Below are positions 37,078-51,255 of a stretch of DNA of 64,000 nucleotides, one piece after another. The stretch is taken from positions 4,400,001 through 4,464,000 of the forward strand of contig OZ038471.1 in the NCBI GenBank assembly GCA_964036295.1. The letters are read 5' to 3'. A program made the translations under genes and the position numbers. The DNA is from Plumapathes pennacea (taxonomy: Eukaryota > Cnidaria > Anthozoa > Antipatharia > Myriopathidae). Below the pieces are notes generated by a model. The model had not been told where the DNA came from. It saw only the letters and a program-made list of their open reading frames with translations, and did no database searches. Numbering within the stretch: the first letter of the stretch is position 1; each line of letters opens with the position of its first letter.

Positions 37078-38995
37078 GTAAGAGTTACCTTTATTAAAGA
37101 GACCCTCTCACTGTAGATGCTTTGCACGCCCATGTTTATATTTACATCCAGAGCTCGACTTTCCTGAGGCACCCACATCATGACTGATCGATCTGACTCT
37201 CGCTGCTTGCTGTATTCAATACACTTTCTGAGTTTGTGCTGATTTATTTTACGATAAATTGTAGAAAACCGTGAGAATCCGCCATTTTCGTATGATACGA
37301 AAATGGCCGCCGTTAGTCACTGGGCGCGCAAAGCATCTACAGTGAGAGGGTCTCTTAATGTCCAGTAATATTATTGCTGCAGTAGGCTACTCTTGACATA
37401 TTTTACTTTGCCGTACATGTAATATATTGCCTATTTGGGTCATGGGTTTATGGGACTGAAAATAGGCTAGACATGAAATGTATCCAAAATGATTTGTCCT
37501 CAGGGGATTTGCTAAAAACTTCAAAAGAAGTATCTTCTCTATTTGTGACATCATTAACATCCACTCACATACCAAGACATCAGACAAACCAAAGTACCTC
37601 TGGACTATTTGTAAAATCTGAATTATCTTTGCTTTAGTTGTGATTAAATTGGAGGGTGGAACAGACAATGACCTGGCCATCCTCGACCGACCATCAACAC
37701 CGACGGCAGAGAGGCCTCGGAAGAGCTCTACCACAGCTGTAGTGTCGCCGAATCAAGAAGACCAAGATTCTTCTAATGGGCAGGTAGCAAACAGTAAAAG
37801 AGGAAAAGAAAAATCTGTACCACAAGAGGCTTCTGCAAAAGCAGGTAAGGATTTGTGAGACCATATTAGGTGTGTGTTCACTGGACAAGTTTGTTGCAAT
37901 AGTCTTCCTGGTCAGAATAGTCTAACCGGACAATCCCAACCAACAATGCATGCAAACCAATTTACCATATTGGTTGCCCCATTGGACAAGTTAGTTGAGC
38001 AAACTACTGTAGTTGTCCAAAACCCAAACATAGTTTTCTGGGACATACTACAACCATTTATTTCTAGCCCTGAGTGTATCTTTGGTAAACAGTTTTGTAC
38101 TGTTTTGTGCATACATGTATGTGCTTTGCTCTTCAAACTGTTCATCTTCAAGATGTTAAAACCTATTCTATTGTGTGATTGACCACCTGTACAGGTACTG
38201 TGCCTGAGGTGGCCCCCGTATCTCTATCCTCTGTTCCCTTACCTGACGCCCCTCCACCTCCATCGGCTTCGTCATCTAAAAAGGCTAGTGAAGCCAAAGC
38301 TAAGACCAAGGACCAGAGCACGGTAAAACCCATTTCCATGCTGGAACCGACACCGGAACAGCAGCAGCTACAGCAGCAAGCGCAGTACTATTATCAACAA
38401 CAACTGTACCAACAACAACAGCAACAGGTAGAGTTCAGTGATGCATTTTCAACTCCCTGTTTATACAGAAACAAAAATTAGAGAGTTTCAAAAAATAGAT
38501 TGTTTTTATCATCAAAACCCTTTCACTCGCAAGAGTGATCAAGTTAAATTTTCTCCTTCAGTTTTGGTAGCACAAATATATCATACAGTAAGAAGAACTT
38601 GACTTTTGATACCTTGCTCAGATGATAGCTGATTAAACTATCAATTCTCACTACACCACTCTTACAATTTCCTCTTAAAAGGTTGGGAGAATCTGAATCT
38701 TGAATTTGGGAGTGAAAGGGTTAAAAATTGTTTTCATGTAAACGCAGCCTCAGTCTGAATCACCAATGCATGTAGTTGTGCGAACGTCTGCCTATGTTTT
38801 GTACTGTGCATGTACAGTATAGATCAGTCTAAAACTAATGTGCCACCAAACAATTTAAAAATACTCTATGCATTGATACAATCATAACTTGTTCACAACT
38901 GAGTTACTTGCAATCATTGGTATGGTAAGCCCAATCAACTCACACTTTAACACCCTATATATTGCAAGGTACATAGTTCTGCATTTTGCTGTTGC

Positions 38996-39029
<34 letters not shown>

Positions 39030-42000
39030 ATTGCACTGCAGTAGTGTCTGCTTTTGTTTTGTAAAGGAATATTATGCCAGACTTCAGGAGCAACAGCAGT
39101 TAGCTGATCAGAGTTCACAAGCTGCTCAGTCAACAGCTGAGCCGGAGTCCACCAAGAAGGTAAAACTTGTACATCCTTAACAGTGATCAACTTCAATTTT
39201 CTTCTTTAGTCTCTCATCAGAGATAATTATATGATACAGTGTATAGAATTTGCCACTGTCTTGATAGTTAGCTCAGAAAGCTGATTGGCCTATTAATTCT
39301 CACTAAATCACTTGAGTACAATAGCTGTTGGGACCAAAGTTTCTTTTGGCCTTTGATGAATCTATTTTCTTTTGCTGTATGCAGTCAAATAAACAGTTGC
39401 ATGTAGATATACTATACAAGATATTATTTCGTGATGGAAACCTGACAATATTTCTCCATTTTGTGGCTCTGTGTAATTGCAGGAAGACGTAGTCAAGAAA
39501 AAGCGGAAACGCCGTCACCGTGAGCCATATTACTATGATGCCATGGACGACGAGAGTGAGAGTGAATCTGAGTCTGATTCAGAGCCCGAGCCAGCACCGC
39601 CTGGAGAGGAAACACCCATGGAAGCATCAAGTGGCCAGGGAGAGCTCCTACCGCCGGGAGTGGAGGCCGAGGCCCCAAGTACAGAGGAGGAGAACTTGCT
39701 TCCTCCAGGTAAATGGAGAAGGGGACCAAGACTTTACCCTATCACACCCAAGGGGGATCAACTTCAAGTTTCTCCTTCAGTATTTTACCAGAAATATATG
39801 ATCACACCATTATGGAGAACTTGGTTTTTGATACCTTGCTTAGATGAAAGTTGATTGAACTATCAATTCTCACTACATCACTCATACATTTTCTTCTTAA
39901 AAGACTGGGAGAATCTGCAGTTTGAGCTTGGGAATGAGAGGGTTTTAAGACAGGGCTTAGAACTCAAGGAAGAAAATGACACACAGAGGGAGATAAGGAC
40001 ATGCTCAACTACAGCAGAGATGAGACACTAGTTCACAAAGACAGACAAAAAAATAACAGCAGAGGCTTAAAGAGGACACTCACTGTACAGAGATCATTCT
40101 CATTTTTTCTCTGATGTTGTTTCAGGAGTTGATTCACCAGCATTAGCAGATGCGAGTATCCAGCTACCGTCAAGTTCTTCTGCAACAGCGGCAGCATCCA
40201 GTGACAGCATCTCCAAAGAGAGCAAGCCAGGTAGAGTAAAGGGTGTTGGTGTGGCAAGGCCAAGGCAGAGAGTGTAGTGGAGTGAGAAATGAGTAAAACA
40301 ATAAGAGTGCCTTACACAGTACCATGTTCTTGATTTGATCATAACTGTTTTCCAGACTCTGGTGAGCAAGCTGTTGGATCCAGTGAACCAGAGCCTGAAC
40401 CAAGTAATGTAGTCAGTGAGGGATCAGCGGCTTCACACGGACAGGAGTCTCTACCAGACCAACCACATACTTCATCAGGTAAAGCATGCACATAATATAC
40501 ATGTAAAGTATACATGCACCAAAGCACTGCTTTACCCTTTCACACGTGTTTGACTTCAATAGTCCCTTTCAGTCTACGTTTACACTATACCGGATAGGAT
40601 TTTGAGCCGTTGCAAAAACCTATCCAGTGCAGTGTAAACACAAAAAGTTCGGTCCGGAGCAACTTTGGCCGAAAAAACCTATCCGGTACAGTTTAAACAC
40701 AAGGCCAGTCCGGAGCGGCTTTGTCACAATCAATCAAAGCAATCGTACCGGTTTCCTATCCAATACTGGTCCGTACCACTTTCAGAAGCGGAGTGGAGCA
40801 ACAGCGCTCCGTTTCAAAAATCGCTCCGAAAACAGTGTATCCAATGTAAATGGAAGGCCTATCTGGTACATTCTTGCGACACTACGGAAAGCTATCCGGT
40901 ATAGTGTAAACATAGCCTCAGTCTCTTACATGTAGTGAATGTCATACAGTAAGGAGAACTTGATTGAAATATCAGTTCTCACCACATCACTAATATGTTT
41001 TCTTCTAAAATAGTTGGGAGAATCTGCACTTTGAGCTTAGAAAGAGTTAAGATCATCTTGAAAACGGATCTCTTACAATCCTGGCATATATTAATTATGA
41101 ACCTTCTTCTGTTCAGTGCAAGGTAAAAGTAGTGGGGTTTTATTTTGGCAATATTTAGAACAAGCAACCAATTTATTCACCAGCTGATTCAACACAAGAT
41201 GCAGACACCAAGGTATCACAGCCAATGGGCAGCTGTCAATCACAAGCAGAAAGTACCTCAGAGGAGAAGCTGCCTGACCAGACAGCAGACCAAACAATGG
41301 ATCAGGTTGGTAGCACGGACAATGCTGTCATTACTGTCAAGAAGGATGAAAACAATGACATGGTTACAGCTTCAAGCAGTGAAGCAGAAGTGAAACCAAA
41401 AGTTGTTGCTGCTGTGGAGGAGCCACCCAGCCAATCAGCACCAGAGCAGAGCAAACCTGCTGAGGATGCAGCTGCCGAGGAAGTGACAAAGGTAGGTGTG
41501 AGGGAGAGGGGTCTTATTTACAGAATTTTATGATATCTTCACAGTGTTGGCGTTTCCACTTCAATGCATATTTATGTGATTTGCCTGCACAGTCGGCACT
41601 GGGTGTGGTTGTCTATGCTGCTGACTCGGTTTTGATTTTCACCTGTGCTACAGCAAACCTTGCCTTGCAACTCATGGTCACGACTCTCGTGACTCTGATA
41701 CTCTGTGTAAGAACATTGCTCTTCCTGATCTCTGTGCATACTATAACTGGTGGGGAAACGAGTGGCCTTATTTAAATACTGTAAAGAAAGAGGCATGTTG
41801 GGGTGTCAGAAAGTGGTTGTTGGTCACATTAACGAGGTGGTCGAGACAAAAAAGAGTGGGCATAATAACGAGGTGGTCATAGGGCATAGTTTCACTGTAC
41901 TGTTGCAGCTGTGCTTGCCAAGAGAGCTGAGAAGGTTATGCTGTAATTCTTGAAATGTCAAATTATTGTTCAGGCATAACTTGGATTGACTGAGGGTCGA

Positions 42001-45000
42001 CGTGTGAAAGCCGGGTGCCGTGAAAGAATTTGAAGCTGACGTTTCGAGCGCTAGCCCTTAGTCTGAGCAAAATTTCTCTAAGCAATACTTCGCTCAAAAT
42101 GTCAGCTTCAAATTCTTTCACGGCATCCAGCTTTCACACATCGCCCCTCGAGTCGATCCAAGTTATATGTATTTCTCCACGCCGGCGCAGTCAATCTAGT
42201 TCTCTTTAAAGCTGGTTTTCTATTGCTCAGGCAGCTGAGGTAGACTCCAACAAACTGTCGGAAAAGAAAGAAGTCCAAGAACCAAAAAGTCCAGTCTTAG
42301 CTCCAGCCAAGAATAACAAAGAAAGGCAACTTGAAGAGAAAGAGGAGGATACCATGCAAGGTGCAGCAAAAGGTGAAGACCAGGAGATGAAGGATGTTAC
42401 TGTCGTAGAACCACGGGCGCTGCACAAGACCCTGTCTCTATTCCTCAAATCTGTCCCACCAAACATCTCAAAAGAAGACGTGATAGTGGTACGTGATTTC
42501 TATTTGATTTTTTTTTTTTAATCACGTAATAAATAGTTATAGTAAACTCTCTTTAAAGCGGACACCTTCAGGACTAGGTTTAGTGTCCGCTTAGAGAGGT
42601 GTCCGCCTTAGAGAGAGCTCAGTTACAGAGAAACAGGCGAAAACCGGCAAGGACCAAATCTGCATGCTGTCCGCCTTAGAGAGGTGTCCGCTTTACAGAG
42701 GTGTCCGCTAAGAGAGAGTTGACTATAAACTAATCAAGCGCTTCTCCAAACGTAAAATTTTCATACTTTATTACTCTTCATCATACTTTATCACTCTTCA
42801 TCATACTTTATCACTCTTCATCATACTTTTTCGCTCTTCATCATACTTTATCACTCTTCATCATACTTTATCACTCTTCATCATACTTTATCACTCTTCA
42901 TCATACTTTTTCACTCTTCATCATACTTTATCACTCTTCATCATACTTTATCACTCTTCATCATACTTTTTCACTCTTCATCATACTTTATCACTCTTCA
43001 TCATACTTTTTCACTCTTCATCATACTTTATCACTCTTCATCATACTTTATCACTCTTCATCATACTTTATCACTCTTCATCATACTTTATCACTCTTCA
43101 TCATACTTTATCACTCTTCATCATACTTTTTCACTCTTCATCATACTTTTTCACTCTTCATCATACTTTATCACTCTTCATCATACTTTTTCACTCTTCA
43201 TCATACTTTATCACTCTTCATCATACTTTATCACTCTTCATCATACTTTATCACTCTTCATCATACTTTATCACTCTTCATCATACTTTATCACTCTTCA
43301 TCATACTTTGTTACGCTTTATGTTCCTTTGTTCCTTACAACGAAAGAAGTGTTTATTTGTCTTATTATACCAAACAATTTGTTCATTGTTATTATTATTT
43401 TGGTCAGGTTTGTAAGCGCTTTCCTGGATTTCTCCGTGTGGCCTTCTCAGATCCAAACCCAGAGAGAAAGTAGGTGACTTTCAGAAAAGCGTTTGGGCAT
43501 GTATATACTGCTGCTCTTGTTGTGTCGGACCGGGACGGGATTGTTACGCATGCACAGTCGGCACTGGGCGTGGTTGTCTGTACCACTGACTCGGTTTTGA
43601 TTTTCACCTGTGCTACAGCAAACCTTGCCTTGCAACTCATGGTCATGACTCTTGTGACTCTGATACTCTGTGTGAGAACATTGCTCTTAAGTTTGAAAAT
43701 CAATTATTTTGTGGCAATTGTCCTTGGATTTGTCATTTTACTCAGTTCTGCCATTCCTTTTCTAATTCTTTCGTCGCAAACTGATCACCATTTTGTTTGG
43801 GTCACTCTAGATTCACGAGAAGAGGTTGGATAACCTTTGACAGAAGTGTGAACATCAAGGAAATCTCGTGGGACTTGGGCACCACCCGAGTGAGTGGTCA
43901 CTGTCTTTTAACTGTGTTCGGAGTTGCTGTACGTGAATTACAGCTCGACAAATTTTTATCCTGTTGAAAACAACACACGTTTCCAGATGTCAACCGTAAA
44001 AAATGACGGATCTAGATTTCTGGTGGTAGCCCAGAACAGACGTTGAAGGAACCCTCAAGCAATTACATCTAGAGAAGTGTAAAAATGTGCTGAATTTATA
44101 GTTCCTAGCACGAAAAACGCAATGAAACGATGACAAAATAGGCAAGCGCAGCACTTTTAGGCTAAAATAAGGTAATTGTCTTCCCAAACAAGTCGGATGG
44201 AAATGGATTGCTAATTTATCTTTAGACTTTCAGGCGCCCTAAAAGTCGCGGTCAAGGATTTCGGTGCACGAAACAGACTGTGGTTAAGATGGCCCCTTCG
44301 ACGTTTGACACTCACTCTCTCTATCTTTCTTTTCTTCTTTGTCCCCAGATCAAGGACATTGAAGTGACTCCAGTTGTAAACCGGGATCTTAATCGACGCG
44401 TGCGAACCGTCTCGGGGATCACCGTGGCGAAGCAGATTGTACGGGACGACATAAAAATGGCGGCTAAGATGATACGCGTGTTGGATTCCAGGATGAAACT
44501 TTACGAGAAGAAACCAAAGGAAGAGACTGAAGCGAATGAGGGGAAGGAGAAAGAGAAGGAAGCTTCTGCGGAGGTAACACTTTCATTCCCCAAAAGTGGT
44601 CAAGTTCAGTTTTTTTTCTTCGATATTTTCGGTAGAAATAGAGCGCACAGTGACAGTGCTTAGCAAAAGTAATGGCAACAAAATTCGACGGAAAATGGCG
44701 AAAAATAGCGAAACTTCGCAAGAAACGAAATTCACATGAACCTACTGTATTGTTTGTACATGTTTGAAATTGATTTTGCTCTTTCCGGCGAAATTTCGCG
44801 CGAACTTAGCTTTTGATACAATGACGGGATTGTTTCACTTGCACAGTCGGCACTGGGCGTGGTTGTCTATACCGCTGACCCGGTTTTGATTTTCACCTGT
44901 GCTACAGCAAACCTTGCCTTGCAACTCATGGTCACGACTCTCGTGACTCTGATACTCTGTGTAAGAACATTGCTCTTCCTGACCTCTGTGCATACAGTGA

Positions 45001-48000
45001 GTTCTGGGGAAACAATTATTTTCACAGAAATCCCGCTGGTTTTACTGAAAATCGAATCCCCTAGCCTAGAATGTCTTAACCTTTTCACTTTTTCCCTCTA
45101 ACCTTTTCACTTCTGCCAGCCTTTCAAGAGGATAATTTGTGGTGGGAATTGATAGTTCAATTTGCTTTCATTCCAAGCTATCAAGAACCACATTCTCTAT
45201 ACCGTTTAATAAATAAAGATTACTGTACTTCATGGAAAGTGCGCGCGTACGGTTTTTATTCACGAGTTGTGAAGTATCATAAAACGAACGAGCGAGGCTT
45301 TGCGAGCGAGTGAGTTTTATGATACGAAACAACGAGTGAATAAAAACTGTACAAAGCACTTTCCATGATGTTTTCTGTTTATTATATACATACTGAGACA
45401 TTTATGATGGGACCGGGAAACCCTTTAAAAGTAGTGAAAAATCGTCGTTCGCAGCTTGTGATTGGACGAACGATTTTTTTCACGTGTGAAAAGCGTCGTT
45501 CGCGGCCTCTCATTGGCTAGAACTCATTTGCGTACGAAATTTTACGATATGGCTTTTTCGTGAGTATGTCTCAGTATGTATATAATAAGATAGATATATA
45601 TCTGGTGAGAAATTGAAGGAGAAAATCGAAGTTGATCGCTGTAGGAGTTGTGGTTATTTTGTTGGTTCTTATCTTAACGCCGTTGGTTTAAACTCATAAA
45701 AAGATGCTGTTGTAGAGAAAAGTGGAATACAGTCATCTCCCTCAAAGACGGACACCCTCGGGACCAGCTCCGACTGTCCCGCGTTTTAGGAGAGGTGTCT
45801 GTCTTATAGAGAGTTCAGTTAGAGTAAATGACTGAAGAAACGGCAGGGACCGCTCCTACCTGGTGTCCGTTTTAGAGTGGTGTCCGTTAACCCTTTCACT
45901 CCTGGGCTCAGAATACAAATTCTCGTAACTATTCAAGGAGAAAATGTATGAGTGGCACAATGAGAATTGATAGGTCAATTCGCTTTTGTCTGAGTGGACT
46001 TTCAAGCAGCAAATTCTCCGTACTACATCACATATCTCTGGTGAGAGATTAAAAGAGAAAATTGAAGTTGATCTCTCTCAGGAGTGAAAGGGTTAAAAGG
46101 CAGTTCACTGTACGTGGTGACATACACTCAGAGACTTAATCAAAACTCTCTCCCACTCTTTAAAGCAGAAAGCAGAGGAAGGCGAAGAGGCGGAGGTGAA
46201 GCAACCAGAAGAAAAGGAGCCGGACTTGCCGACTGTAAACCCAATGCTGGTGTCGCTCTCAGAAGACGCAGCAGAGGAAGAAGGAGGTGAAGAAATGGAG
46301 TTGATCGGACCCTCCACCACAACACAACCGGACGAAAGTGAGGAGAAATCCACTGTAGATCTGTCTCCTGACGAGAACCTGATGCGGGTGTTGGACAGGC
46401 TTTTACTTTATCTTCGTGTTGTGCACTCTCTTGATTACTACAATGGCGGCGATTACCCGTACGAGGATGAGATGCCCAATCGATGTGGGATCGTACACGT
46501 GCGGGGTTCTTTACCAGAGAAAGCTACACAGGCTGAAGGTGAGGCACGGAGACGTTGCTGTCAGTTCAATGTGTTCGTACGCCTGTTTATTTGTCCACTT
46601 TTTTATTCCTTCACTAAACATCTATGAATCCTCGAAGGGTCCATGTGAGTAGACACATGTACCTGTTGGGTACCTTTTTTTGTTTGCTTGTTTCTTCACT
46701 TGTTTGTTTATTTCGTTTGTTATTACTTTATTCGTGTTTCTTTGGCTGTTTGTTTGTTTGTTTTGCTCAGTTGTTTGTTTGTTCGCTTCATTGCTTAGCC
46801 ATTAAACTCAATGCAAGGACTCGATACACAACTATAGTTAATGTAATTTTATAAAATAACTATGATACTACGCGCGCTCTGATTGGCTAAGTAACCGTGT
46901 AAGATGAGAGTATATTACACGATGACGCGATACTTGATGTATTTTAATTGACTAAAAGAAATATGTAACGCGCCACCGTGTAATATAGCCTCATATAAAC
47001 ACTTGGGAAGTTGGGAGAACACGAGAGTAGCGCCGGAAACCACTCGGCGGCCTCGTGGTTTCCTTACGCTACCCTCGTGTTCTCCCAACTTCTCGCGTGT
47101 TTAGATGAGGCTATATTACACGGGGACGCGTTATATATTTCTCAAGTATTTCCTATAACATAAGTTGTGCACAAGAAAAGCGGGGCTTGGACACGATGTT
47201 AAATTTGAGTTAGAACGAGGTACGTAGTAATGGCGACGATCGGTGACCAACGATAGCGAGCGGTGTCATTATAGGCAGTTTAAGATGTTTCTGATCATTA
47301 TTTGTTCTCTTGTAGTTGAAGAATGGCAGAAGAATCTGAAACAGAAGCTGGAGCCTCACATTCATCCCAAGGAAAGTTTACCCGAGGAGGAGATTGTACA
47401 GCTCGGCAAGAAAGACCCGGTCGCATATCCTTGACTACTTTTCACTTCATTATCTGCGCGCAGTTCTTATTAATGTGCTTTAACGTTTCTCACAGAATGG
47501 TTTTCAGATGACTGTCGAAAACAAAATCAAAGTAAACACACCGCCAATCACAGACGCTGTAAGAAACACTTTCAACCAATTAGAAGCCAAAAGTAATCCG
47601 CGTTTAGTTTTACCTTGAAAAAGAAATCAATCAGCAGTGCGAGGAAACGCCATTGCCACTTGCGTGAGCATATTTCCGTCAGCTTTTGCTTTTAATTGGC
47701 CAACAATGCTGCTAAACTTGTTTGAAAGCGTAGCAAACGCAAAAGCAATCACATACTGACTTTCGACTGTCATCCTAAAACCGCTCTAAAAAATAGTGTC
47801 GTTAGTAATCAGACTACCGTTTGGGCCGTCCGTTCAGACCAGGCAGTCTGAGTAATCTAAGGTCGATCGATATATACTCCTAATCGCGTGAGGTTATCTT
47901 TTTTTTTCCTTGACTGTCGACAATGAGACCGAAAAGTTTGTCGAGGCAAATACTCAAGAGCTGGCGAAGGACAAATGGCTGTGTCCACTGAGCGGCAAGA

Positions 48001-50442
48001 AATTCCGAGGCCCGGAGTTTGTAAAAAAACACATCTTCAACAAACATGCGGACAAAGTGGACGCCGTCAGGATGGAGGTAACGTTTAGTCAAATTCTCCC
48101 AACCATTTACATAGGAAACATACAAATGATGTGGTGAGATCGATAGTTTTATCGGCTGTTTGCAAAAAGGGTTTGTTCTCAATTTGTATTTTTCAGTGTA
48201 CGAATATATCGAGTGGCTAGAGTCGAAAGACTTCTCTTCTGCACATTATACTACGTATCCGAAGTTTAGGATAGAAAAAGAAACGTGTGGAGGATTTTAA
48301 CTTTGAAACATTTCCACGATCTTTTAGGCTAATGTTTAGCTTCTCTTATCGTAGGCGGAGTTCTTCAACAACTATTTATCAGACCCAAAGCGGCCGCAGG
48401 TTCCTGACCCAAGTATCACCAAGCTCCCCGGAAATCCGTCACAGATGGGCGGCCAGATGTACGGTGGTCATCCGCACGGCGGGCAAGGCATGATGGGTTG
48501 GGGAGCGCCCAGGCCCCCTATGATGATGTACGGTAAGTGGCAATGCATTGCAAAGGTTGTCGCGAGGGGCTTGGTGAGTCGGCGATTGGACACTACGGAA
48601 ATATGTATTTCTGCTGTGCGGTCACCTTGCTTTTGAGTCAGCGGTCATTGCACAAAACTGGGTTCAAGTGCAGATTTTGTGGGTCAGTGTGACACTCATT
48701 TCACTCCCAAGCTCAAAGTACAAATTCTCCCAACCATAAAATAAGAAAATTTATTATATGACTGTGACGTAGTTTTACCATATAAGGTCGCAACAGAGTG
48801 CCGGTACGGGAGCGTATTACACACTTCAAATCCGTATTACACTGTAGAAAACCGGTTTGACCGGTTAAGACGCGCGCGTATCACAAATGAATCAAAGATT
48901 TTTCTGAGTGCAAGGTAAAACGGTGCAACGAAAGTCTATGACTTTTCAGATACGAGACCCTTCCATCGAAAGAAACTGTTACTGGATAATTTGTCAAGGA
49001 AGAGAAAGCACAGTTCAGTTGGTGGAAAGCGAACAATCGCCATGGACAAACGGCAGTTCTGACTCCGTAAAGTTTTCCGCACGATGCCGTCACTGTAAAC
49101 ACTGCAAAATGATTTTCGCCGTGTACGAACACTGTTTCGAGTGGTTCCTTTGCTGGAAGGGGTCTTAAACTTTCTACAACCAGGCAGGAAATCGGTGAGT
49201 TGTTAATAATCTATAACTTGACAACGCGGAGTGTCGGCGGTAAAAATCCTAGTCGTGTTATGAAAGTTTCAGATTCTTCAACGTACACATTCGCTGGCTC
49301 TGTTCTAGTGTTTATTCCTTAACTACTCCGAGAAAATAAAAACCCTGTTTTGAGTACAAAGCTGCTTGCTATTGAAGAACAAAAATGGTTAAAAGTTTAA
49401 GCGAAGTGATCGATTTCAACCGCTCGAAGCACATTTGTTCGCTGAATATTTATTCTGTCGAAGCAAGCATTTTCTTCTCCAGCGCATTTATCTCAGCACA
49501 TTTAATCTGAATTGAACTTCGATCATTTGGTGGCATAACTTCTTTAATTTTCTCTGTCAAGATTTTTAAATCGATGACCGGATTGGAAGCTGTAAGTGAA
49601 TCTTTGTGTAAATGAGTGTGCGTACATTTTGCCTGGGATTGAATGAAAACAGTTTTGCTCGAAGTCTCTGTTTTATGTTTGCTGAAATATATTTTATATA
49701 AAGGTAAAACTACGTCACAGTCATATAATAAATCCCTCATTCGATGGTTTAGCGCGTAATACGGGCCGGCATTTTACTCGTTACTCGCATTTTTCCTCGC
49801 CCCGCGGCGGGGCTCGGAAAAATACGAGCAACTCGTAAAATACCGGCCCGTATTACGCGCTAAACCATCGAATAAGATGTATGTATGAGTGATGAAATGA
49901 GAATTGATTTGTTAATCAGCTGTCACTTGTGCAAGGTATCATATGCCAAATTCTCCATAATGTATGATATATCTCTTGTGGGAGACTGAAAAAAGAAAAT
50001 TAAACTTGATCACTCCTGAGAGTGGAAGGGTTAAGACTTGGCCAAGAAAATCAATACTCAACTGAAACTTAGTTCAGTGCATTTTTTATAACATAAGTTG
50101 TGCACAAGGAAAACGGGGCTTGCACACGATGTGAAATTCTACCTCGAATTAGACCCATATAGTAATGGCGACGATCGCTGACCAGCGGAAGTGACGTCAA
50201 GCACGTACTTCCGGTCGTGTATAAATGTCTGTGTTTGTGTGATTGACAGGACGTGGTCATTACAACACACCTCCAGGCTACGGTGGCTACGGACATGACA
50301 CGTATGGGAGAGGTCACACGTTTCCTCCAAAGCCGCGCAGGTGAGTTGGAGTACAGTTGAAGTCGCCGTTATTTGGAAGTCAAGCCGAATCCCCTATAAC
50401 GAAGCTTGACTACCTTAGTTATTTCGAAACCCCGCTATTTCG

Positions 50443-50478
<36 letters not shown>

Positions 50479-51255
50479 CGTGTCCCGTGGGACTTCGAAA
50501 TAGCGGGGTTCGACTGCGTTTTACAAGCTGTACCAATTTCTCTACTCTTTGAAACACGATTTTACCCAACACGATGGCCAAATACTGCTGCAACTATGCA
50601 TTTGATTAATGGTCCAACTACGTGTAATTGTTTATTGAATTGGCCCCTGGTAACATGTGTTCTTTTGCTCGCATGAAAGCCAATGACGTTTAGTGCTGTT
50701 TGATTAATGGTCCAACTACGTGTAATTGTTTACTGAATTGGCCCCTGGCAGCATGTGTTCTTTTGCTTGCATTAAAGCCATTGACGTTCAGTGCTGTTTG
50801 ATTAATGTTCCAACTACGTGTAATTGTTTACTGAATTGGCCCCTGGCAACATGTGTTCTTTTGCTCGCATTAAAGCCAGTGGCGTTTTTTTTTTTTTGCA
50901 GATTCGGGTTTCAGTCAGGAAGGGGTAAAATGAGCGACAGGTTGGTCAGCTACCAAGGTTGTTTAGAGAGATTGTATTCAAATTTGATCCAAGTGTATTT
51001 TGCGATGATGTTGATTTGACATTACTGGGGCTTAGCGGTGACGCAGAATAAAGTACCTTCTACCAGAAAAATAAAACATCCTCGTTCTCAGACTCTCATC
51101 CGGGCGGGGTAAGGGAAAGAGTTTGGGAACGAAGACGAAGAAAATGAACCTGTGTTTATTTGTTTCTTTGTTTCTGCAGGGGTTTCCACCGTGAAGCAAG
51201 ACAACTTGTTCAATACCGTGACCTAGACGCTCCGGAAGATGTGGACGTGTTTTGA
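35056..51255 (+). CDS. SRRT: SRRT/ARS2 (Serrate), nuclear cap-binding-complex adaptor, 22 exons
   Basis: Exons: 35056-35306, 35516-35644, 35922-36095, 36908-37077, 37638-37844, 38195-38427, 39067-39159, 39483-39708, 40126-40230, 40356-40478, 41184-41491, 42231-42488, 43408-43469, 43811-43889, 44349-44573, 46166-46538, 47316-47424, 47924-48077, 48355-48532, 50250-50340, 50902-50940, 51180-51255. The lengths sum to 3663 nt, an open frame of 1220 residues. Every junction is phase-consistent and GT-AG, except intron 17. ARS2 bridges the cap-binding complex (NCBP1/2) to factors for snRNA, histone mRNA and miRNA processing, export and decay. Order: Arg/Asp-rich N-terminus ([13 protein letters not shown]), SERRATE/ARS2 N domain (about 127-245), long acidic, Ser- and Gln-rich linker (250-730), RRM-like domain (about 735-815), a conserved [12 protein letters not shown] block (about 960-975), zinc-finger-like CPLSGKKF...H...H (about 1062-1083), Gly/Met/Pro-rich tail and C-terminal [13 protein letters not shown], the cap-complex contact. 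It is longer than human SRRT (about 876) because of the linker. Confidence 0.95.
37638..41491 (+). CDS. SRRT: SRRT exons 5-11: long low-complexity linker
   Basis: Starts with [15 protein letters not shown], which matches the end of the vertebrate N domain, then becomes Ser/Glu/Pro-rich. Exon 6 has a Gln-rich stretch ([18 protein letters not shown], then six Q). Exon 8 has a basic cluster KKKRKRRHR, a likely nuclear localisation signal, followed by a [13 protein letters not shown] acidic run, a probable casein kinase 2 substrate. Exon 11 starts at 41184 after ATTCACCAG; this acceptor was chosen because the stronger-looking one at 41158 breaks the frame. Vertebrates have a shorter acidic linker here. 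Confidence 0.85.
38519..38721 (+). repeat. family A repeat in SRRT intron 6
   Basis: CCTTTCACTCGCAAGAGTGA at the start, CATACAGTAAGAAGAACTTG inside, and GGGAGTGAAAGGGTTAA at the end. A complete copy. Confidence 0.8.
38985..39030. repeat. (GTT)n microsatellite just upstream of SRRT exon 7
   Basis: GCTGTTGCTGTTG followed by about ten GTT units, ending 37 bases before the exon 7 acceptor. It may act as part of an extended pyrimidine/uridine-rich tract. Confidence 0.9.
39745..39946 (+). repeat. family A repeat in SRRT intron 8
   Basis: ATCAACTTCAAGTTTCTCCT at the start, CTTAGATGAAAGTTGATTGA inside, and GAATGAGAGGGTT at the end. A shorter related piece lies in intron 7 at about 39182-39320. Confidence 0.75.
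40538..41052 (+). repeat. family A copy split by an inverted-repeat MITE (SRRT intron 10)
   Basis: Family A sequence runs 40538-40573 and resumes at about 40922-41052. Between them lies a ~350-bp element whose ends TACGTTTACACTATACCGGA and TCCGGTATAGTGTAAACATA are inverted copies. CAGTCT or a similar short word flanks both sides. Confidence 0.75.
41587..41718 (+). ncRNA. candidate box H/ACA snoRNA, copy 1 (SRRT intron 11)
   Basis: A 132-nt block on the host strand, 95 bases after the intron 11 donor. GCACAG at the 5' end pairs with CTGTGC, closing hairpin 1 (inner stems ACTGGG/CTCGGT and GTGGT/GCTGC). Directly after comes the hinge ACAGCA, which fits ANANNA. Hairpin 2 has CTTGCA/TGTAAG as lower stem and GTCACGA/TCGTGAC around a CTC loop. 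ACA follows, exactly three bases from the end (ACATTG). This is the box H/ACA layout: guides for pseudouridylation processed from spliced introns and bound by dyskerin, NHP2, NOP10 and GAR1. The target was not determined. The distance from the upper stems to each box is about 19 nt, longer than the usual 14-16. Confidence 0.68.
41985..42170. repeat. hairpin element with GAATTTGAAGCTGACG arms (family J)
   Basis: GTGAAAGAATTTGAAGCTGA on the left is matched by TCAGCTTCAAATTCTTTCAC on the right; outer parts (GTGTGAAAGC / GCTTTCACAC) also pair. The loop is about 50 bp. A diverged relative lies near 1930-2110. Confidence 0.75.
42231..44573 (+). CDS. SRRT: SRRT exons 12-15: RRM-like domain
   Basis: Exon 12 ends the acidic linker and starts the fold with [18 protein letters not shown]. 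Exons 13 and 14 give [15 protein letters not shown] and [18 protein letters not shown]. Exon 15 gives [31 protein letters not shown] and a Lys/Glu-rich tail. Segments match human ARS2 almost residue for residue. The RNP-like aromatic positions are largely replaced, as in other animal ARS2 proteins, so RNA binding by this domain may be atypical. Introns 12, 13 and 15 carry a minisatellite and two of the three snoRNA-like blocks. Confidence 0.92.
42541..42726. repeat. family B repeat in SRRT intron 12
   Basis: AACTCTCTTTAAAGCGGACA at the left; several GTGTCCGC and CTTAGAGAG words; AGAGAGAGTTGACTATA at the right. Ends are inverted copies of each other. Confidence 0.7.
42761..43320 (+). repeat. 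20-bp minisatellite, 28 units, in SRRT intron 12
   Basis: Unit TCATACTTTATCACTCTTCA repeated in perfect 20-bp register for 560 bp. Position 10 alternates between A and T; eight units carry T, one of them with an extra change (TCGCTC). The first and last units are the most diverged, as expected for array edges. The spread of T-type units suggests growth by block duplication. Confidence 0.97.
43552..43683 (+). ncRNA. candidate box H/ACA snoRNA, copy 2 (SRRT intron 13)
   Basis: Same 132-nt architecture as the intron 11 block, 82 bases after the intron 13 donor and 127 before the acceptor. Differences from copy 1 keep pairing: the inner stem is GTGGT/ACCAC (all Watson-Crick here), and hairpin 2 is GTCATGA/TTGTGAC (wobble pairs replacing C-G and G-C). 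Hinge ACAGCA and terminal ACATTG are unchanged. The small size of this intron (341 bp) leaves little room for anything else. Confidence 0.68.
44841..44972 (+). ncRNA. candidate box H/ACA snoRNA, copy 3 (SRRT intron 15)
   Basis: Third 132-nt copy, on the host strand, 267 bases after the intron 15 donor. The inner stem is GTGGT/ACCGC, and the second stem changes a G-U to a G-C pair (ACTGGG/CCCGGT). It shares a short 5' flank with copy 2 (GACGGGATTGTT) and a 3' flank with copy 1 (GCTCTTCCTGA), which points to segmental duplication between introns. Confidence 0.68.
45103..45655. repeat. family A copy split by two palindromic elements (SRRT intron 15)
   Basis: Family A pieces at about 45103-45208 and 45600-45655 flank two insertions. 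One is a hairpin at 45226-45376, with TTCATGGAAAGTGC/GCACTTTCCATGA ends and TTTTATGATAC motifs. The other is a ~215-bp MITE at 45377-45592 with TTATTATATACATACTGAGA and TCTCAGTATGTATATAATAA as inverted ends. Confidence 0.7.
45730..45890. repeat. family B repeat in SRRT intron 15
   Basis: CAGTCATCTCCCTCAAAGAC at the start, GACACCCTCGGGACCAGCTC inside, and GTTTTAGAGTGGTGTCCGTT at the end. Confidence 0.65.
45892..46096 (-). repeat. family A repeat, complete copy, in SRRT intron 15
   Basis: CCCTTTCACTCCTGGGCTCA at the left and CTCTCTCAGGAGTGAAAGGG at the right form inverted ends; ATCTCTGGTGAGAGATTAAA is internal. It ends about 70 bases before exon 16. Confidence 0.8.
46166..48077 (+). CDS. SRRT: SRRT exons 16-18: helical core and zinc-finger-like region
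   Basis: Exon 16 begins at 46166 (CTTTAAAG|CAG), the only nearby acceptor in frame. It encodes an acidic run, then [31 protein letters not shown] and a donor in AEG. Exon 17 encodes [11 protein letters not shown] through LGKKDP. Exon 18 encodes [18 protein letters not shown] and the zinc-finger-like [17 protein letters not shown]...NKH. Only one Cys is visible before the His pair, so metal binding is not proven by sequence. The exon 17/18 border is the unusual U12-like one. A strict GT-AG reading (47419/47928) also keeps frame but loses three residues. Confidence 0.88.
46850..47150. repeat. family D palindrome in SRRT intron 16
   Basis: Hairpin arms of about 60 bp at about 46970-47032 and 47067-47133: GTGTAATATAGCCTCAT, GGAAGTTGGGAGAACACGAG and TAGCG on the left are mirrored on the right. 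The left flank contains CTGATTGGCTAAG and GAGTATATTACACG. Confidence 0.8.
47153..47275 (+). repeat. family H repeat immediately upstream of SRRT exon 17
   Basis: ATAACATAAGTTGTGCACAA, CGGGGCTTGGACACGATG and AATGGCGACGATCGGTGACC. Related copies are at 50085-50215, just upstream of exon 20, and at 63525-63660, upstream of a PRDM14 exon. Confidence 0.7.
47505..47792. repeat. family C MITE, copy 3, inside the U12-like SRRT intron 17
   Basis: Left end GGTTTTCAGATGACTGTCGA, right end TTTCGACTGTCATCCTAAAA, interior CCAATCACAG and ATCAGCAGTG words as in copy 1. Confidence 0.75.
48355..51255 (+). CDS. SRRT: SRRT exons 19-22: Gly/Met/Pro-rich tail and cap-complex-binding C-terminus
   Basis: Exon 19 encodes [18 protein letters not shown], then a Gly/Met/Pro-rich stretch. 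Exons 20 and 21 are Gly/Tyr/Arg-rich. The 39-nt exon 21 uses a weaker GTTGGT donor. Exon 22 ends in [17 protein letters not shown] and TGA at 51253-51255. Human ARS2 ends in DLDAPDDVDFF, the tail that contacts NCBP2; here the penultimate Phe is Val. Intron 19 (48533-50249) is swollen by nested mobile elements. Confidence 0.9.
48693..50034. repeat. family A copy split by a 983-bp TIR element plus a 135-bp palindrome (SRRT intron 19)
   Basis: Family A starts at 48693 and stops near 48746, then resumes at about 49874 (ATGTATGAGTGATGAAATGA) to 50034. The first insert (48750-49732) has perfect 30-bp inverted ends containing TATGACTGTGACGTAGTTTT. It holds no transposase frame; the longest ORF inside is 86 codons with CRHCKHCK and no recognisable domain. 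The second insert (49739-49873) is a near-perfect palindrome with ATTCGATGGTTTAGCGCGTA at its tip and a GCGGCGGG centre. Confidence 0.85.
50085..50215 (+). repeat. family H repeat upstream of SRRT exon 20
   Basis: ATAACATAAGTTGTGCACAA, ACGGGGCTTGCACACGATGT and TAATGGCGACGATCGCTGAC. It ends about 35 bases before the exon 20 acceptor. Confidence 0.75.
50418..50515. repeat. hairpin with poly-T loop in SRRT intron 20
   Basis: TTTCGAAACCCCGCTATTTC, then about 34 T residues, then GAAATAGCGGGGTTCGA. A short MITE-like inverted repeat whose loop holds a long homopolymer. Confidence 0.8.
50601..50888 (+). repeat. 98-bp tandem repeat, three units, next to the SRRT exon 21 acceptor
   Basis: TTTGATTAATGGTCCAACTA begins units at 50601, 50699 and 50797. 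Each unit runs through GAATTGGCCCCTGG, ACATGTGTTCTTTTGCT and GACGTT. The unit derives from the right end of a family G element (compare 21270-21313). The array ends about 13 bases before exon 21, so its last unit abuts the polypyrimidine tract. Confidence 0.88.

Follow-up and report, generated by a model that had tools for sequence, protein, structure and literature searches.

Three intronic blocks in the SRRT gene

The region analysed is a 64,000-nucleotide (nt) stretch of the antipatharian Plumapathes pennacea genome (contig OZ038471.1, positions 4,400,001–4,464,000 of the forward strand, assembly GCA_964036295.1), referred to below as the window. The gene SRRT/ARS2 lies in it on the + strand, and the protein families PF12066 and PF04959 match two of the four stretches tested. 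Three ungapped 132-nt blocks, all on the same strand, are located within introns of this gene and are candidates for box H/ACA small nucleolar RNAs (snoRNAs):

41587..41718, + strand: copy 1, H/ACA snoRNA candidate, SRRT intron 41492–42230
43552..43683, + strand: copy 2, H/ACA snoRNA candidate, SRRT intron 43470–43810
44841..44972, + strand: copy 3, H/ACA snoRNA candidate and best-folding copy, SRRT intron 44574–46165

The intron borders correspond to splice sites chosen by eye and located by script. There is one block per intron, on the coding strand, and a single block-free intron separates each neighbouring pair. Gapless alignment and splice-site placement bear out the initial annotation of this DNA, which had described three same-length, same-strand 132-nt blocks in SRRT introns. 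Copy 1 shares 94% sequence identity with copy 2 and 97% with copy 3. The block edges are less sharp than the initial annotation had stated: conservation does not start at the first stem base, as copies 2 and 3 are alike for ~20 nt further upstream, nor does it fade uniformly after the ACA, where copies 1 and 3 remain similar, though decreasingly so, for another ~45 nt. As a general pattern, multicopy snoRNA genes in the introns of animal hosts are cis-duplicated and lie one per intron on the sense strand, a layout that the SRRT blocks share.

A DNA search of the 290-Mb genome returned these three blocks as the sole matches, and a translated search again returned just these three places in SRRT. 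Scoring was limited to the best candidates in both searches, and very common words are skipped by the DNA search, hence the result is not a full repeat census. Dispersed genomic copies, which had been proposed as the mark of a transposable element, were found by neither search. Exact 20-mer scans of bacterial/archaeal and viral collections yielded 0 matches to the blocks. In the part of the literature covered by searches on coral, Nematostella, cnidarian and SRRT-hosted snoRNAs, on the target discussed below and on SNORA40, no title or abstract opening dealt with the block RNA, and no paper there combined SRRT, "snoRNA host gene" and SNORA.

Two-hairpin architecture

H/ACA RNAs are defined in a passage of PMC7991803 by the order hairpin-hinge-hairpin-tail with an H box ANANNA, and passages of PMC7991803 and PMC8522698 place the pocket ~14–16 nt from the box. 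In all three copies ACAGCA, which conforms to ANANNA, follows the first stem, and ACA follows the 3′ stem three bases before the block end, the RNA end being set from the block; both elements stand as first described. The hairpin-hinge-hairpin-tail arrangement is also the RNAalifold consensus of the three copies, with no broken pair. The individual elements, all on the + strand, are as follows:

41587..41648: 5′ hairpin, copy 1, lower stem GCACAG/CTGTGC
41650..41655: H box ACAGCA, copy 1
41659..41711: 3′ hairpin, copy 1, lower stem CUUGC/GUAAG
41664–41671 and 41699–41706: 3′ pocket strands, copy 1, CUUGCAAC and UACUCUGU
41713..41715: ACA box, copy 1
43552..43613: 5′ hairpin, copy 2
43615..43620: H box ACAGCA, copy 2
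43624..43676: 3′ hairpin, copy 2, pocket 43629–43636 and 43664–43671, same letters as copy 1
43678..43680: ACA box, copy 2
44841..44902: 5′ hairpin, copy 3
44904..44909: H box ACAGCA, copy 3
44913..44965: 3′ hairpin, copy 3, pocket 44918–44925 and 44953–44960, predicted to pair with 18S GGAGUA[UG]GUUGCAA
44967..44969: ACA box, copy 3

The 3′ hairpin comprises a lower stem of 5 base pairs (bp), an 8+8-nt pocket and a distance of 14 nt to the ACA, within the published spacing, and its 16 pairs are all standard in each of the three copies. The distance is 14 nt because the U-A, C-G and A-U pairs below the main stem are counted. The earlier objection that the spacing amounts to about 19 nt therefore falls for the 3′ hairpin and holds for the 5′ hairpin under the stem originally drawn. 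Owing to a CCTTG-CCTTG repeat, the 3′ lower stem can form in two registers of nearly equal energy. The CUUGC/GUAAG register has energies of -16.8, -11.3 and -16.8 kcal/mol in copies 1, 2 and 3, respectively, compared with -16.6, -11.1 and -16.6 kcal/mol for the other, and leaves the symmetric pocket CUUGCAAC and UACUCUGU 14 nt from the ACA. The upper stem and pocket opening of the 3′ hairpin were fixed before the target search; the register with the 8+8-nt pocket was derived after it.

Sequence variation and folding

The three copies differ at 9 of the 132 columns. Seven of these columns fall in pairs of the hand-written structure and all seven retain a standard pair, in agreement with the initial annotation that the differences lie mostly in stems and keep pairing. 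The pair-keeping changes are one-sided wobbles, and two-sided compensation is absent among the three copies. When nine random transitions were placed on copy 3, no pair was broken in 7.5% of the trials, and no broken pair together with at least seven changes in pairs occurred in 0.27%; when the nine random changes could be any substitution, all pairs stayed unbroken in 0.32%. The pair-shuffle control (500/500) is powerless here. With three paralogues and no two-sided change, the kept pairing of the variable columns is modest evidence for the structure. The folding z-scores of the 132-nt blocks are -2.15, -1.13 and -3.57 for copies 1, 2 and 3, respectively.

Descriptor scan and comparison with Rfam

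Both strands of the window were scanned with a descriptor of two hairpins, each with a lower stem of 5 bp or more beside ANANNA or ACA, a pocket (left side at least 2 nt) and an upper stem 13–16 nt from the box. The scan returned 114 distinct ACA ends, among which the blocks rank 2, 4 and 9. Dinucleotide shuffles of copies 1, 2 and 3 matched the descriptor in 32, 44 and 30 cases per 10,000, respectively, and for each copy 0 of 10,000 shuffles scored as high as the block itself. With the left pocket raised to at least 3 nt all three copies still pass, copies 1 and 2 by switching to another 5′ lower stem. The best score for copy 1 uses a hairpin start at 41566 rather than 41587.

Of the three copies, short-query comparison with Rfam covered copies 1 and 3 (161 bases each). 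Copy 3 matched SNORA84 (E 0.086), SNORA22 (E 0.9) and SNORA35 (E 9.5), and copy 1 matched SNORA22 (E 3.9) and SNORA35 (E 5). These matches are on the + strand, span the full model length and end at the block end. Their bit scores are far under the gathering cut-offs (17.6 of 45 for SNORA84; 16.3 and 13.3 of 80 for SNORA22; 10.6 and 11.8 of 39 for SNORA35) and are individually insignificant. The copy 1 and copy 3 lists each also contain a microRNA and a box C/D family, and the copy 3 list has a trypanosomatid H/ACA RNA on the opposite strand. A control stretch, 50179–50358, gave one C/D match and no H/ACA match. Copies 1 and 3 have in common with SNORA22 (RF00414) the string UUGCACAGU...CUGUGCUA-AGCAA, which spans the H box and the lower stem of the 5′ hairpin, and with SNORA22, SNORA84 (RF01229; copy 3 only) and SNORA35 (RF00566) the strand, the full-length match and the 3′ end. 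The similarity to these three families is likely a class resemblance only.

Predicted 18S target of the 3′ hairpin

The pocket strands of the 3′ hairpin are identical in all three copies. A scan that demanded at least 9 bp, 3 or more of them on either side, compared these strands with the coral's own ribosomal RNA (rRNA) fragments, its U2 and U5, and foreign rRNA. The sole match at 9 bp or more is in an own 18S fragment, GGTA[UG]GTTGCAA, with 11 bp of which 10 are Watson-Crick. At 8 bp or more, with at least 3 per side, the same 18S site is the single match in the own rRNA fragments, U2 and U5, which total 7,431 bases. This own fragment is a broken copy in which non-18S sequence precedes the site. 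The upstream half GGAGTA was taken from foreign eukaryotes because the assembly yielded no intact 18S. The composite site GGAGUA[UG]GUUGCAA, its upstream half being foreign, pairs over 13 bp (6+7), 12 of them Watson-Crick, with an unpaired U-G between the two halves. The pairing is thus 7+4 with the own fragment and 7+6 with the upstream half of other eukaryotes, both above the guide rule given in a passage of PMC7991803 (at least 8 bp to the target, at least 3 on each side). Three of the four foreign small-subunit rRNA (SSU) sequences (L007, L012 and L014) read GGGGGAGTATGG at the site. When 5,000 shuffled guide pairs were tried on 9,606 bases together with the joined site, 220 attained 10 Watson-Crick pairs, 72 attained 11 and 17 attained 12.

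The candidate target is the U within 18S GGAGUA-U-GGUUGCAA. If this U is position 1174 of human 18S, then human positions 1174, 1177, 1232, 1238, 1244 and 1248 are all T in the own fragment; 1248 is taken here to be a modified position. The other five are among the human 18S modified positions in PMC6182160, a table of which lists pseudouridines (Psi) 1174 and 1177 at 100% in ribosomes. By the spacing of the modified positions, the target U is predicted to be the equivalent of human 18S Psi1174. One other offset within the own 18S fragment also fits the human modified positions; the human 18S sequence would favour the offset with the target at 1174.

The H/ACA reading put forward in the initial annotation gains from the descriptor ranks, the shuffles, the weak full-length Rfam matches to H/ACA families and the 18S pocket fit, and the H/ACA identity of the blocks appears well supported by sequence and structure. 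The locus very probably encodes three cis-duplicated, intron-encoded box H/ACA snoRNAs of ~132 nt in SRRT/ARS2, whose 3′ hairpin would guide modification of the 18S U equivalent to human Psi1174. As members of this class, the snoRNAs would be freed by exonucleases once their introns are debranched, and dyskerin, NHP2, NOP10 and GAR1 would bind them. The 8-nt left and right pocket strands would then pair 7 with GUUGCAA and 6 with GGAGUA around the unpaired U-G, and the computed pairing suggests that the 3′ hairpin directs pseudouridylation of that U.

The 5′ hairpin

The H box and the GCACAG/CUGUGC lower stem of the 5′ hairpin are clear. The distance to the box depends on how the UCGG/UUGA segment is treated: it is 14 nt with a left pocket of 0 nt when the segment is counted as paired, 16 nt with a 3-nt left pocket when it is partly opened (copy 3), and 19 nt with the stem originally drawn. 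Copies 1 and 2 reach 13–16 nt with a pocket of at least 3 nt through other 5′ lower stems only. Five and then six pocket registers were compared with the own rRNA fragments, U2, U5 and foreign rRNA. The top own matches have 8 Watson-Crick pairs of 10–11 in three different registers, and many shuffled guides equal them; the best match found also in a foreign large-subunit rRNA is 28S GGGA[UG]AACCA, with 7 of 9 pairs Watson-Crick. The 5′ hairpin may be an orphan half or may have its target in an RNA beyond those compared. A resemblance of block motifs to the ends of human U5 small nuclear RNA (snRNA) was not borne out by the coral's own U5 on inspection by eye.

Counter-evidence and alternative explanations

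Several observations weigh against the assignment and its target. Every Rfam family stays below its gathering score in the window, and a 3.7-kb Rfam search matched no family to the blocks up to E 10. An Rfam-known RNA was rejected, no family being at cut-off on the blocks, and the initial remark that the family was not recognised is consistent with the zero gathering-score matches. The descriptor was written after the blocks had been seen, and its top match, 50179–50353, overlaps by eye the apparent 3′ exon of SRRT; this match was taken as a false positive, and the descriptor alone is not specific because its first-ranked match overlaps an apparent coding exon. Three near-identical paralogues provide no two-sided covariation. 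Copy 2 barely beats its shuffles (z -1.13; -0.53 with five more bases; -0.56 for the 3′ half), the whole-block folds of copies 1 and 2 prefer other global structures, and copy 3 with five extra upstream bases also prefers another global fold. With the GCACAG stem of the 5′ hairpin, the 13–16-nt rule needs weak pairs and a left pocket of 0–3 nt, and no convincing target of this hairpin was found in the own rRNA fragments, U2, U5 and foreign rRNA.

With respect to the 18S target, the fourth foreign SSU (L010) reads GGGGTAGTACG, with a C at the target position. A second own 18S fragment, which carries GTATGGTTGC, reads ACGTATGGTTGCATAG and lends no support to the upstream GGAGTA; it does not confirm that half because ACGTA lies upstream and CATAG downstream. 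Overall confidence was slightly lowered because neither this second fragment nor one of the four foreign SSUs supports the upstream half. The own fragment alone offers 11 bp with 10 Watson-Crick, a level reached by 220 of the 5,000 shuffled guide pairs, and in a larger, redundant rRNA set 22 of 300 shuffled guides reach the 11-bp score. The second target of SNORA40, 28S-4546, is not supported for the blocks as aligned below.

Some alternatives retain the H/ACA class. One working snoRNA accompanied by two decaying duplicates would fit the few transitions by which the copies differ and the poor folding of copy 2; this is unlikely, since all three copies retain intact boxes and an intact 3′ pocket and no proposed pair is broken, and the flanks common to copies 1 and 3 have already decayed. 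An H/ACA RNA with a different main target, either an orphan or, as with a small Cajal body RNA (scaRNA), a guide for snRNAs, is distinctly unlikely. In its favour are the 5′ hairpin, which lacks a convincing target, and an snRNA comparison confined to U2 and U5 among the snRNAs; conversely, 12 of the 13 pairs formed by the 3′ pocket are Watson-Crick, and the site is homologous to a pseudouridine known in human.

Other alternatives dispense with a snoRNA. A cassette exon, possibly a poison exon, triplicated in SRRT would read TGCACAG/TCGG...CTCTGT/GTRAGA, 114 nt long and open in phase 0. The AG at its start and the GTAAGA or GTGAGA at its end are kept in all three copies, and the matched stretches are stop-free over 51, 51 and 47 amino acids. 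These pseudo splice sites are nonetheless ordinary, given that 999–1,825 of the 3,887 GT and 534–990 of the 3,902 AG sites of the window score equally. The stretches have no Pfam match up to E 10 and no coding relative elsewhere in the genome in the translated search among the best candidates scored. The nine differences fall 3, 2 and 4 at codon positions 1, 2 and 3, so that the third position is not favoured, and copy 2 was read as lying in a phase-2 intron, where a TGA would be met. Such an exon is very unlikely. A fragment of a transposable element or other repeat is extremely unlikely: inverted-repeat elements do occur in the region, but the 290 Mb yielded three blocks, all on the same strand of a single gene (among the best candidates scored), and none of the seven inverted repeats listed for 41000–46500 has an arm that overlaps a block. 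The blocks are most likely an ordinary H/ACA guide that has diverged beyond the reach of Rfam.

Genomic surroundings

Each block contains one open frame with AG start and GTRAG end strings; therefore, gene finders might call exons there. The intron of copy 1 also holds an inverted repeat at 41992–42149, with 59-nt arms that are 90% complementary and 40 nt apart, and it resembles a small inverted-repeat transposon. Between copies 1 and 2, the block-free intron contains a 20-nt tandem repeat of 27.5 copies with 97% matches (42761–43309). An element at 45887–46096 is bordered by perfect 18-nt inverted repeats, TTAACCCTTTCACTCCTG, and is perhaps related to repeats at 38517, 39165 and 39736. A further tandem repeat, of 98 nt and 2.9 copies, occupies 50601–50887.

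Elsewhere in the genome, the own rRNA genes that were found are scattered fragments (L021, L023 and L032–L037; contigs C5 and C7). Six equal-scoring 28S domain-V pieces are located on contig C7, and ~20 diverged ones lie in a row on contig C10. At least 45 equal-scoring U2 genes, spaced ~1.37 kb apart, form an array at 6836636–6896753 of contig C8 with a strand switch partway through; the number is a lower bound, 46 candidates having been scored.

Relation to SNORA40 and implications

The closest functional comparison is with SNORA40/ACA40 (RF00561), which belongs to the same H/ACA class, has a model of 128 positions compared with the 132 nt of the blocks, and has as a target 18S-1174, the position predicted for the blocks. 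In a table row of PMC6466398, SNORA40 is assigned 28S-4546 and 18S-1174 as targets and TAF1D as host. The human host gene TAF1D differs from SRRT, which hosts the three block copies here. SNORA40 (cut-off 51 bits) is not among the window matches nor among the matches of copies 1 and 3 up to E 10, and no SNORA40 over the cut-off was found in the genome among the 48 of 58,950 candidates scored, the top score being 29.6 of 51 bits at another place. One weak SNORA40 match (L038) was inspected by eye and rejected as not SNORA40-like. The own 28S, as aligned here with human 4546, reads GATGAAAGG[TT]GTTGCAATAG at the presumed site, where the guide pairs 7 on the left and 1 on the right (by eye); the human 28S string gives 5+3 pairs with the guide. 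In this alignment the 28S-4546 target is not supported in this species because the right guide strand pairs only 1.

Judged by its predicted target, the block RNA is likely a functional counterpart of SNORA40. A more far-reaching proposal is that 18S Psi1174 is guided here by an H/ACA RNA not descended from SNORA40 and tripled inside the ARS2 gene, that ARS2, a factor in RNA processing, could influence the output of the guide, and that the guide for a conserved modification present in full was independently replaced between animals with the modified base kept. This proposal is speculative and, taken as a whole, unlikely; should the block RNA have no kinship with SNORA40, it would exemplify the turnover of guides under a conserved modification. 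The SRRT blocks would add to this genome an unannotated guide RNA family that the Rfam cut-offs miss. The predicted target is a concrete, conserved small-subunit position that is also modified in human. The case also illustrates that anatomy and target can suffice to recognise a guide after sequence similarity to known families is gone.

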